Assembly: GCF_026130545.1 (NCBI RefSeq)
Contig: NZ_JAMOIM010000004.1
Span: 1 to 64,000, forward strand
Direction: 5' to 3'
Length of the DNA: 64,000 bases
DNA from: Lichenifustis flavocetrariae
GTDB lineage: Bacteria > Pseudomonadota > Alphaproteobacteria > Rhizobiales > Beijerinckiaceae
Numbering within the stretch: the first letter of the stretch is position 1; every line of letters starts with the position of its first letter. Both the position numbers and the translations under genes were made by a program. The notes beneath the pieces were generated by a model. The model was not told the DNA's origin and ran no database searches. It saw nothing but the letters and a program-made list of their open reading frames with translations. This document shows, piece by piece, positions 41,805 through 52,960 of this stretch.

Positions 41805-41821
41805 GGTTGGTTCGATCGACC

Positions 41822-43447
41822 ATGGATGACTTCGACTACGTGATCGTCGGCGCGGGCTCGGCCGGTTGCATTCTGGCGAGCCGGCTCAGCGAGAGTGGCG
41901 AATACAGAGTGGCGCTCATCGAGGCCGGGGGCCCGGACGATTCCTTCTGGTTCCGCATTCCGGTCGGCTATGCGCGCAGCTATTTCGACCCGCGCGTGAA
42001 CTGGATGTATTCGACCGAACCCGAGCGAGAACTCGGCGACCGCCGCATCTATACGCCGCGCGGCAAGGTGCAGGGTGGATCGGGCTCGATCAACGCCATG
42101 ATCTTCGTGCGGGGCGCGGCGCAGGATTTCGACGATTGGGCCGAGGTCAGCAGCCCCGACTGGCGTTTCGAGGCTGTGCTGCCGTATTTCCGCAAGCTCG
42201 AAACCCACGCGGATGGCGGTTCCGACTGGCACGGCGACCAAGGACCGATCCATGTCACGCCGATGCGCGACGGCATTCACCCCGTCACGAAGGTCTTTCT
42301 CGATGCCTGCCGTGAACTTCAATTGCCGCTCAATCGCGACTTCAACGGCGCCAGCCTGGAAGGGGCCGGCGTCTACGACATCTCGACCCGGCTTGGGCGG
42401 CGCTCCTCGTCGAGCTTCGAATATCTCCGCCCGGCTTTGAAGCGGCCCAACCTGACGATCCTGCGCAACGCGCATGCCCAGCGGGTGCTATTCGATGACG
42501 CGCGGCGCGCGGTGGGGGTCGACATCCTGCAGGATCGCATGGTGCGGCGAATCGCAGCACGACGCGAGATCATTTTGGCGGCCGGTGCGGTCGGCTCGCC
42601 AAAGCTGCTTCAGCTCTCCGGGATCGGCGATGGCGCGACGCTGCGCGCAGGTGGAGTCGAAGTGCTGCACGACCTGCCGGCAGTCGGCTGGAACCTGCAA
42701 GACCATCTCTGTGCGAGTTTCTATTACCACTCCCGGATCCCGACCCTGAATGGGGCCTTCGGCAGCCGGTTTGGCCAGGCAGCGCTCGGTCTACGCTATC
42801 TGCTGACCCGCAAGGGGCCGTTCGCGATGAGCGTCAATCAGGCCGGAGGATTCTTCCGTGGAACCCCGGCTGAAGCGCGCCCGAACATCCAGCTCTATTT
42901 CAATCCGCTCTCCTACCGCGTTCCGGAAAACCCCAGGAGCGGCCTGAAGCCCGAGCCCTATCCGGGCTTTCTTCTGGCGTTCAATGCCTGCCGGCCGTCG
43001 AGCCGTGGGGCTGTCACGATCGACGGGCCGGACCCGGAGGCCGCGCCTCTTATCCGGCCGAACTATCTTTCCACGGACCACGACCGCAGCGAAGCCGTGC
43101 AAGGCGCGCGTCTGGCCCGCCGCATCATGGAGGCACCTTCGCTGCGAGATGTGACGCTGGCCGAAATGCCACCTTCGGCCGAAGCGTCGACGGATGCCGA
43201 TCTCCTCGCCTGGTTCCGCCAGTCGTCAGGCTCGATCTACCATCTCTGCGGCAGTTGCGGCATGGGGCGTGATCCACAGCGTTCGGTGGTCGATGCCAAG
43301 CTGCGCGTCCACGGTTTGCCAAATCTGCGCGTGGTGGATGCGTCGATCTTTCCCAACGTGACCACAGGAAACATCAACGCGCCGACGATGATGGTCGCTG
43401 AGAAAGGGGCTGCAATCATCCTGGCGGACACGCGATCGTCAGCTTGA
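41822..43447 (+). CDS. GMC-family FAD-dependent oxidoreductase (choline dehydrogenase-like)
   Basis: A 541-residue flavoprotein. DYVIVGAGSAGCILASRLSE is the FAD-binding motif, VQGGSGSINAMIFVRG the first GMC signature, EIILAAGAVGSPKLLQLSGIG the second, and the C-terminal YHLCGSCGMG..VVDAKLRVHGLPNLRVVDAS and NAPTMMVAEKGA complete the catalytic His/Asn region. It oxidises primary or secondary alcohols of an unknown substrate. No signal peptide. It follows the enolase-superfamily gene by 17 bases, suggesting oxidation of a polyol or sugar feeding that enzyme. ATG 41822 is preferred to an upstream TTG. Confidence 0.92.
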   Translation: MDDFDYVIVGAGSAGCILASRLSESGEYRVALIEAGGPDDSFWFRIPVGYARSYFDPRVNWMYSTEPERELGDRRIYTPRGKVQGGSGSINAMIFVRGAAQDFDDWAEVSSPDWRFEAVLPYFRKLETHADGGSDWHGDQGPIHVTPMRDGIHPVTKVFLDACRELQLPLNRDFNGASLEGAGVYDISTRLGRRSSSSFEYLRPALKRPNLTILRNAHAQRVLFDDARRAVGVDILQDRMVRRIAARREIILAAGAVGSPKLLQLSGIGDGATLRAGGVEVLHDLPAVGWNLQDHLCASFYYHSRIPTLNGAFGSRFGQAALGLRYLLTRKGPFAMSVNQAGGFFRGTPAEARPNIQLYFNPLSYRVPENPRSGLKPEPYPGFLLAFNACRPSSRGAVTIDGPDPEAAPLIRPNYLSTDHDRSEAVQGARLARRIMEAPSLRDVTLAEMPPSAEASTDADLLAWFRQSSGSIYHLCGSCGMGRDPQRSVVDAKLRVHGLPNLRVVDASIFPNVTTGNINAPTMMVAEKGAAIILADTRSSA

Positions 43448-43519
43448 GCTAAGCCATCGCTGTTTCGCATATCTGCCTTGCAGAGGGTCGGCGATTGTGC
43501 TCTATAACGGCTCCTAGAC

Positions 43520-43546
43520 AAAAAAAGAGCCGCCCGAAGGCGGCCC
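43520..43546 (-). terminator. Intrinsic terminator of the sRNA
   Basis: A 6-bp GC stem, GCCGCC/GGCGGC, around a TTCG loop (43544-43529) is followed leftward by TC and then six Ts (43526-43521). It is directional: on the plus strand the A tract precedes the hairpin. It closes the sRNA transcript and may also stop antisense reading into the GMC gene. Confidence 0.8.
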
Positions 43547-43594
43547 AAGTCTAGGGAGGAAACGCCCAAGAAGGGCATGCAGCGCGAACGCTGC
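43520..43594 (-). ncRNA. Small trans-acting RNA gene, MmgR/alpha-r8-like
   Basis: Reading leftward, transcription would begin about 43594. A perfect 6-bp stem with a UUCG loop (GCAGCG/CGCUGC, 43594-43579) is followed by a second hairpin (GCCC-UUCUU-GGGC, 43576-43564), an unpaired UUUCCUCCCUAGACUU segment and a GC-rich hairpin GCCGCC-UUCG-GGCGGC (43544-43529) ending in a U tract (43526-43520). The length, about 75 nt, the three-hairpin plan and the UUUCCUCCCU core match my memory of the MmgR (alpha-r8) sRNA of rhizobia, whose pyrimidine core is anti-Shine-Dalgarno-like and pairs with mRNA leaders. Promoter and terminator both fit. Confidence 0.78.
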
Positions 43595-43600
43595 AAAGCG

Positions 43601-43629
43601 AATATGATCTTGCAGTGCACAAATGTCAA
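43601..43629 (-). promoter_or_regulatory. Sigma-70-type promoter for the sRNA
   Basis: On the minus strand a consensus TTGACA (43629-43624) is followed by a 17-base spacer and CATATT (43606-43601), four of six matches to TATAAT. Seven bases downstream lies the first base of the 5' hairpin of the sRNA. Spacing and position are those of a strong housekeeping promoter. Confidence 0.75.
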
Positions 43630-43648
43630 CCCCCGCTCTGGGGGTTTT
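43630..43648 (+). terminator. Possible rightward terminator after the GMC operon
   Basis: CCCCC-GCTCT-GGGGG (43630-43644) followed by TTTT (43645-43648). The short stem and short T run make it a moderate intrinsic terminator for transcripts from the enolase-superfamily/GMC pair. It abuts the -35 box of the leftward sRNA promoter. Confidence 0.5.
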
Positions 43649-43757
43649 CATGTTTTGGCTTGAGGATGCCGGCCGCCGACCTGTCGCGGAAAAGAAGGCT
43701 GGCTCTCTCACGATCTTTTTGGCCGCGGCTCCGATCTTTGCTGTTTGCTGTCTGGAC

Positions 43758-44489
43758 ATGACATCGAGTGAACTGGACCGGCGGAGGGCGTCGGCGCGGC
43801 ACCTTTTTGAACAAGGGGAGTCCGCCCTCAGGAGAGGTGATATCGGCAGAGCCGGGGAGGCTTTCGAGGCGGCGGCGTGGGAAGCACCCGACTGGCCTGA
43901 TCCTGTGTTCTCCCATTGCCTCGTGCTTTTGGAGCGAGCCGAACCGGCGGCAGTCAAGCTTCTGCAGGATCTGCTCACACGTTACCCGGATCACGCACCG
44001 GGTTGGGAGGCGATAGGACAGGCGCTTTTGAGAGCCCGCAAGGCCGAGGCGGCACTCGCCTGTTTCGAACGGGCGACGCACGTCAGCCCAAGCTGTACGC
44101 GTGCCATGGGACGCGGCTCGGCCCTCCGGATGTTGGGACGAGTCGCGGAGGCCCGGGATGCATTCGATGAGGCTGGCCGCCTCGACCCGCACTCCGGGCG
44201 TGCGACCTTCCTGCTGGCGCTGTCCGCACAGGATCTGCAGGACTTTGCCGCCGCCCGCGACGGCTATCTGCGTGTCCTGGCGAACAACCCTGAACTCGTC
44301 GAGGCGCACGTCAATCTCGGGACGGTGTTGCAGGCCATGGGCGATCTCGAAGGAGCCAAGCAGGCCTATGGAGCCGCCGTACGGCAGCGGGGCGACACCT
44401 TCGGCCGCGTGAGCCAGGCCATGACGATGTCGCCCAAGGGCGAGCTATGGCTCGACCTCGAAAGTCTCCGGCGTCACCTCGCCGGCTGA
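43758..44489 (+). CDS. Tetratricopeptide-repeat protein
   Basis: A 243-residue helical-repeat protein with about five TPR units: LFEQGESALRRGDIGRAGEAFEAAA, GWEAIGQALLRARKAEAALACFERA, GRGSALRMLGRVAEARDAFDEAG, LLALSAQDLQDFAAARDGYLRV and VNLGTVLQAMGDLEGAKQAYGAA. Such proteins are scaffolds for protein-protein contacts. ATG 43758 is preferred over longer in-frame starts at 43650 or 43623, which would extend into the terminator/sRNA region. Its 3' end overlaps the convergent gene by 45 bases. Confidence 0.75.
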   Translation: MTSSELDRRRASARHLFEQGESALRRGDIGRAGEAFEAAAWEAPDWPDPVFSHCLVLLERAEPAAVKLLQDLLTRYPDHAPGWEAIGQALLRARKAEAALACFERATHVSPSCTRAMGRGSALRMLGRVAEARDAFDEAGRLDPHSGRATFLLALSAQDLQDFAAARDGYLRVLANNPELVEAHVNLGTVLQAMGDLEGAKQAYGAAVRQRGDTFGRVSQAMTMSPKGELWLDLESLRRHLAG

Positions 44490-52832: not shown

Positions 52833-52960
52833 CGAACCGACCTTCCTTCGAAGGACTGCGCCGGAGCTCCGATCGCTCGAACGCGCAACATGCGCATCGT
52901 GCCTTCCTCCCGTATCTCGACGCTTGAATGCGTCTTGGATTGCTTGCGCGTAGCCTATGT

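Follow-up and report, generated by a model that had tools for sequence, protein, structure and literature searches.

The window, by which we mean the whole 64-kb stretch of DNA that was analysed, carries a putative gene for a small RNA (sRNA) on its minus strand, flanked by a GMC oxidoreductase gene and an ORF for a TPR protein (Table 1). This is where an earlier, sequence-only reading had placed it. The RF00519 match found in a covariance-model search passed the cut-off of 41 bits (E 2.4e-11), which upheld the proposed MmgR/alpha-r8 family, and was the only Rfam match at cut-off in the window.

Table 1. Features of the sRNA locus, in coordinates of the window
Feature	Position	Strand	Basis or remark
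GMC oxidoreductase (PF00732/PF05199), convergent neighbour	41807–43447	+	
RF00519 (suhB, described as mmgR; alpha-r8) match	43513–43583	−	65.9 bits; whole model, positions 1–77
Predicted sRNA transcript, 75 nt	43520–43594	−	5′ end inferred from the −10 box (start placed ~7 bases past it)
Intrinsic terminator GGGCCGCC-UUCG-GGCGGCUC + seven U	43520–43546	−	Sequence and predicted fold
Anti-Shine-Dalgarno core 10-mer UUUCCUCCCU	43553–43562	−	Unpaired in the predicted fold except for the first U
Short second hairpin AUGCCC-UUCUU-GGGCGU	43562–43578	−	Predicted fold; helix in the Rfam model
5′ hairpin GCAGCG-UUCG-CGCUGC	43579–43594	−	Predicted fold and genus-wide stem conservation
Sigma-70-type promoter TTGACA-17 nt-CATATT	43601–43629	−	10 of 12 consensus positions
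PhaR/AniA-like operator CATTTGTGCACTGCAAGATCA, core TGCACTGCA (43619–43611)	43605–43625	−	Between the promoter boxes; sequence likeness
TPR protein ORF, divergent neighbour	43623–44489	+	True start probably downstream, e.g. ATG 43758
Opposite-strand intrinsic terminator	43628–43646	+	Sequence; touches the −35 box of the sRNA

The promoter that had been read on the minus strand was recovered, with TTGACA at 43629–43624 and CATATT at 43606–43601; the mean number of such sites in the shuffled region was 0.1. All elements described for the 75-base unit were also found in the predicted fold, in the order UUCG-capped hairpin, short second hairpin, unpaired stretch, UUCG-capped terminator and seven U. 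The predicted folding energy was −36.8 kcal/mol (z −4.74), and none of 200 shuffles equalled it. The pyrimidine core noted earlier corresponds to the anti-Shine-Dalgarno core.

MmgR is an Hfq-bound sRNA that limits the accumulation of polyhydroxybutyrate (PHB). The window sRNA is like MmgR of Sinorhizobium meliloti in its covariance-model family, its 10-mer core, its hairpins, its terminator and its length of ~75–77 nt. Four features that mark an alpha-r8 RNA were present: a full-model score, a mostly single-stranded 10-mer that follows a weak hairpin, a 3′ Rho-independent terminator and a covarying structure. AbcR (alpha-r15) RNAs also have CU-rich anti-Shine-Dalgarno motifs and partly match RF00519 (PMC7143759), and the gene could on these grounds be an AbcR sRNA instead. 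The RF00519 match is full-length, however, and includes the exact alpha-r8 10-mer; moreover, there is one anti-Shine-Dalgarno core and not two, and the length is ~75 nt and not 114–120 nt. We consider an AbcR identity extremely improbable. Judged by its sequence, the window gene is a well-formed member of the known alpha-r8/MmgR sRNA family; it has a PhaR-type operator, and its setting is unusual.

Twelve dispersed RF00519 matches were found in the window genome, 11 of them above the cut-off. The weak ones were C136b (43.2 bits) and C112 (39.1 bits). The five congeners had 14, 12, 8, 5 and 3 copies. Among 289 genomes of the class, 159 had a match, with the window genome at the top (12) and the next at 7; among 199 genomes of the family, 195 had a match, and outside the genus the counts peaked at 11 and 10, both from a single further genus. 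As the class and family scans used stricter filters, their counts are lower bounds. The genus has the highest alpha-r8 copy numbers among the sampled genomes.

We infer that the window genome belongs to the genus of Lichenihabitans psoromatis; the window sRNA matches a 152,258-base plasmid of this species, which came from an Antarctic lichen. Of the genera mapped in metagenomes of lichens, this one is described as the most frequently recovered, and it is credited with anoxygenic phototrophy and numerous sugar/polyol transporters (PMC11542873). The window genome has a gene for reaction-centre H.

Covariation of the structure with relatives, a test named in the sequence-only reading, was seen in the 5′ stem across the genus copies. 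Since MAFFT put the variable 5′ arms out of register, covariation was tested by re-dealing the arms. A 5′ stem of at least 5 contiguous bp was present in 47 of 54 genus copies, with 30 distinct 5′ arms; with re-dealt arms (200 trials), such a stem was present in a mean of 24.7 copies (a maximum of 32). In the core 10-mer, 8 of 10 positions were invariant and 2 were conserved at 90% or more; this alignment took 39 of the 54 genus copies and left out 15.

Another copy of the window genome, C136:211031, has an inositol monophosphatase (suhB-like) gene on one side and an FGase gene on the other, and it has a counterpart with matching flanking genes in all five congeners. The FGase/suhB site is given as the alpha-r8 place in most single-copy species (PMC12559287). 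As C136:211031 occupies this ancestral site, the window copy is a paralogue. The neighbours of the window copy are the GMC and TPR genes and not an FGase gene, which weakens its identity as an MmgR orthologue, but not its alpha-r8 identity.

In three congeners (G002, G003 and G004), no RF00519 match was found near the TPR counterpart. In G001, a match was found 4.3 kb from the TPR counterpart; it shares the glycerol-kinase/transporter block with the window copy but occupies another gap of it. This copy (L265, G001:C1:2958695) is weak, with 41.4 bits. No GMC gene was recognised beside the TPR gene in the listed congener loci, and the precise empty site was unreadable there.

Copy number also sets the window genome apart from the known systems. 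MmgR is given as the sole alpha-R8 sRNA of S. meliloti (PMC12559287), although a review table lists 3 genome copies for it (PMC7143759); here there are 12, and the window copy is off the FGase site. The suhB element of Corbino et al. (2005) was described as a likely ncRNA opposite suhB with a putative promoter and terminator, with five copies in Bradyrhizobium japonicum and four in Caulobacter crescentus (PMC1273637). These are fewer copies than here, and phages are unmentioned in the available part of that paper. SisA–SisD of C. crescentus are, as here, several dispersed alpha-R8 siblings with the same 10-mer. For these siblings, repression of transporter targets through the 10-mer, on Hfq, is reported as demonstrated (PMC12559287).

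Some individual copies are worth recording. The copies at C10:195607 and C119:10220 (L015 and L016) have several upstream ORFs in common (73–83% identity), a sign of segmental duplication, and the latter copy adjoins ArsC/ArsB genes. In the congeners, alpha-r8 copies also occur on small contigs or plasmids (L263, L264 and L266 on G001:C3, C5 and C4; L272 on G004:C2). The plasmid matching G004:C2 is typed as conjugative, and its alpha-r8 copy lies near an acyl-homoserine-lactone synthase gene.

The sRNA had also been called antisense to its flanking genes. The opposite orientation holds, but the sRNA is intergenic and begins beyond the reach of the GMC gene, whose stop codon is at 43447. The GMC protein had a best match of 74% identity. 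The −35 box of the sRNA meets the TPR ORF only with an ORF start at 43623. The TPR ORF aligns with its four best matches in congeners only from residue 75–93 onward, so that a start later than 43623, at or after ~43758, is likelier.

Two features at the locus were absent from the earlier reading: the plus-strand terminator and the operator in the promoter spacer. An opposite-strand terminator directly upstream of the promoter was found in 6 of 54 genus copies, compared with 22 of 2090 random flank stretches. The six copies are the window copy, C91, C10a and C158a of the window genome, one copy in G001 and one in G003 (besides the window, loci L012, L013, L014, L261 and L287). Pairwise similarity among the four copies of the window genome covered 114–187 bp. 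It started at the upstream terminator in five of the six pairs, and only from the sRNA in the pair of the window copy and C158a. Between these four and the two congener copies, 45–129 bp were similar, and between the two congener copies 214 bp. From terminator to terminator, the window unit measures ~130 bp.

The GMC gene points at the RF00519 match and ends 65 nt before it. A read-through transcript of the GMC gene would carry the full sRNA antisense and then stop at the plus-strand terminator. The RNA could act mainly in cis, with the GMC 3′ UTR antisense to the sRNA and mutual control of the two, or with the GMC mRNA as a sponge for all alpha-r8 siblings. The position of the plus-strand terminator just beyond the sRNA promoter would suit such a role, as would the report that a Caulobacter alpha-R8 RNA is sponged by a complementary RNA, CrfA (PMC12559287). 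At C91 and C10a, however, both of which bear the terminator, the downstream gene was called in the other direction. The upstream terminator is therefore independent of a convergent neighbour, and we regard cis action as unlikely.

The operator-like site has the exact core YGCRNYGCR. It has 2 mismatches to the published 21-base consensus (PMC12542648) and is identical to the S. meliloti mmgR site at 16 of 21 bases. In S. meliloti, the mmgR promoter is described as repressed by the PHB-responsive AniA/PhaR, which acts on a dyad located between the −35 and −10 boxes (PMC8401924). Efficient binding of PhaR to this promoter in gel shifts is reported together with the 21-base consensus (PMC12542648). 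The place of the operator between the promoter boxes is another likeness to S. meliloti MmgR.

Of the 54 genus copies, 18 have the exact operator core in their promoter region (4 of the 12 in the window genome); among control stretches, 170 of 5250 have it. When up to 2 mismatches were allowed, the whole 21-mer was found in 12 of 54 copies against 62 of 5267 controls; as related copies are not independent, nominal p values overstate this enrichment. A looser dyad, TGCN3-4GCA, was present in 15 of 54 copies and in 116 of 5242 controls. The exact core was absent in 36 of 54 genus copies, which means that any PhaR control would not be general. The Caulobacter siblings, by contrast, are described as having no common upstream motif (PMC12559287), whereas here the operator-like site recurs in 18 of 54 copies and the opposite-strand terminator in 6 of 54.

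One PhaR homologue (PF07879) is encoded in the window genome, at C125:125991, on the contig of the window. The operator and this homologue support a putative control of the sRNA by the PHB/carbon state, and they back the PHB link more than the location of the gene does. The PHB link drawn earlier stood in part: the operator and the homologue speak for it, but the window gene is one of 12 copies and is not the copy at the ancestral site, so that a PHB role of this particular copy is putative.

With 12 paralogues, the window gene could also be a silent or decaying duplicate with an intact sequence and no role of its own. A matching TPR gene without an adjoining alpha-r8 gene in four congeners points in this direction, and so do the two copies of the window genome near or below the cut-off. 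The near-consensus promoter with an operator-like site, the intact terminator, the perfect core and the clean 5′ stem argue against decay, and we hold this explanation to be quite improbable.

Candidate targets were sought with the complement of the core. The pattern GGGAGGAA was found 3–9 nt before an ATG 23 times in the genome, compared with 3 times for the reversed pattern, and 14 of the 23 sites start a plausible gene. Eleven of these 14 genes were scanned. Seven encode solute-binding proteins, and the other four an acetyl-CoA synthetase, GlgB, a xylose-isomerase-like protein and reaction-centre H. The complement of the full 10-mer occurred before an ATG twice, each time before a solute-binding-protein-like gene. 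One candidate start site for pairing with the core is AGGGAGGAAAACATG at C169:21691. The control pattern HGGAGGAA gave 105 places against 22. Control genes came from 30 of the 105 places, and of the 9 scanned (out of 10), 2 encode solute-binding proteins. The share of solute-binding proteins (7/11 against 2/9) was not significantly different (Fisher p 0.09), so that the excess is only suggestive.

Local targets were rejected, as core duplex energies at 51 gene starts of the window had a mean of −15.1 against −15.3 (sd 0.8) for shuffled cores. The occurrence of GGGAGGAA at 52911–52895 of the window was also discarded as a target; the frame that begins there is only 22 codons long. The single pattern used to look for a CrfA-like sponge revealed none: perfect complements were not in excess, with 5 non-alpha-r8 sites against 6 control sites.

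In Caulobacter, SisA is reported to repress transporters, and this is attributed to the same 10-mer as the alpha-r8 core (PMC12559287). An hfq gene is present in the window genome. Most likely, the core of the sRNA would pair with Shine-Dalgarno sites with the help of Hfq and in this way repress uptake and carbon-storage genes.

Our main reading, to which we give a probability of about 0.85, is that the locus encodes a stand-alone, trans-acting alpha-r8/MmgR sRNA of ~75 nt, one of 12 copies, kept off by a PhaR/AniA-type repressor and acting by repression through core pairing with Shine-Dalgarno sites. Transcription would start leftward from the sigma-70 promoter at 43629–43601. A repressor of the PhaR/AniA type, bound in the promoter spacer, would keep the sRNA off; PHB would draw the repressor away and switch the sRNA on, as described for S. 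meliloti. The core, probably on Hfq, would then pair with purine-rich Shine-Dalgarno sites and block the translation of uptake and carbon-storage mRNAs.

Relatives of the sRNA were found in viral sequences. The 21-base core GGGCGTTTCCTCCCTAGACTT occurred in 103 viral-contig stretches with 95 distinct surrounding sequences. A T-run lay within 45 nt of the core in 62 of the 103; by that rule, 41 had none. The RF00519 cut-off was passed by 15 of 16 viral or phage core loci scanned. A mechanically called ORF of at least 100 aa overlapped the sRNA place in 44 of 103 viral loci.

We checked the neighbouring genes in 105 viral or phage loci, with sRNA-overlapping ORFs set aside. Upstream, the nearest called gene was on the strand of the sRNA in 65 of 91 cases; downstream, this held for 63 of 99. 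An upstream gene of one cluster was present in 30 of the 105 loci, always on the sRNA strand (30/30). It is labelled as an antiterminator on the basis of two scanned members, both of which match PHROGs phrog_6386. In a separate comparison that covered 44 loci, 16 of the 132 neighbour proteins matched phrog_6386. Downstream, HNH genes were found in 19 loci (19/19 on the sRNA strand; 18 of 19 begin at most 90 nt from the core), a phrog_12540 gene in 20 loci (20/20) and a gene of a terminase-large cluster, of which one member was scanned, in 30 loci (30/30). The upstream gene together with at least one downstream marker was found in 19 of the 105 loci, any marker in 45 and none in 60. A motif like CATAGGnTGTGCGG lay ~43 nt upstream in 25 of 102 viral copies.

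A phage origin of the genus copies was considered and found no support. No ORF lying up to 6 kb from any of the 54 genus copies matched a profile of the viral clusters, which covered antiterminator, HNH, phrog_12540 and terminase proteins. The viral promoter-like motif was found in none of the 54 genus copies. The exact operator core was found in the same place in 2 of 102 viral copies.

The viral alpha-r8 RNA is possibly a late-operon leader RNA. In lambdoid phages, the terminated leader from the late promoter can be a regulatory RNA (StxS, PMC12101431). The likeness of such leaders is one of place only, and concerns the viral alpha-r8 genes and not the window copy: the pR′–tR′ leader and many phage alpha-r8 genes lie after an antiterminator gene and before late genes, and no homology is claimed. 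A wider reading, which we put forward tentatively and with some doubt, is that alpha-r8 is a travelling regulatory RNA common to chromosomes, plasmids and temperate phages. Its phage form would be a late-operon leader, and the copies of the lichen genus (3–14 per genome, the window copy included) would be the domesticated end of this traffic, some of them under the PHB sensor of the host. A lysogen would transcribe from the promoter just past the antiterminator gene and stop at the alpha-r8 terminator; once the antiterminator was made, transcription would read through into the HNH/terminase genes. If this were true, a prophage would add an Hfq-type anti-Shine-Dalgarno RNA and retune nutrient uptake of the host.

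The window gene itself extends a known family, and the pattern that surrounds it would matter more. Specialists would take up the expansion of the family across the genus and, most of all, its phage context. The highest sampled alpha-r8 counts fall in a genus recovered from lichens and described as rich in sugar/polyol transporters (PMC11542873). With the high copy number in the genus and the recurrent late-operon place in phages, the question of why so many copies are kept, some of them bearing a PHB-sensor site, becomes testable. The same is true of whether prophages use alpha-r8 to reset the feeding of the host. No description of a phage-borne alpha-r8 was found in literature listings or in the available parts of PMC12559287, PMC12197685, PMC3091675, PMC5913331 and PMC8401924; the main phylogenetic paper (Lagares 2016) lies outside this scope.

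Among 50,697 annotated phage records, the window sRNA matched two, Bradyrhizobium phage ppBeUSDA76-1 and Microcystis phage Mwe-JY08 (hosts as deposited), and both hold GGGCGTTTCCTCCCTAGACTT exactly. Viral loci such as L158, L162 and L377 carry alpha-r8 genes, and the antiterminator–HNH/terminase arrangement recurs.
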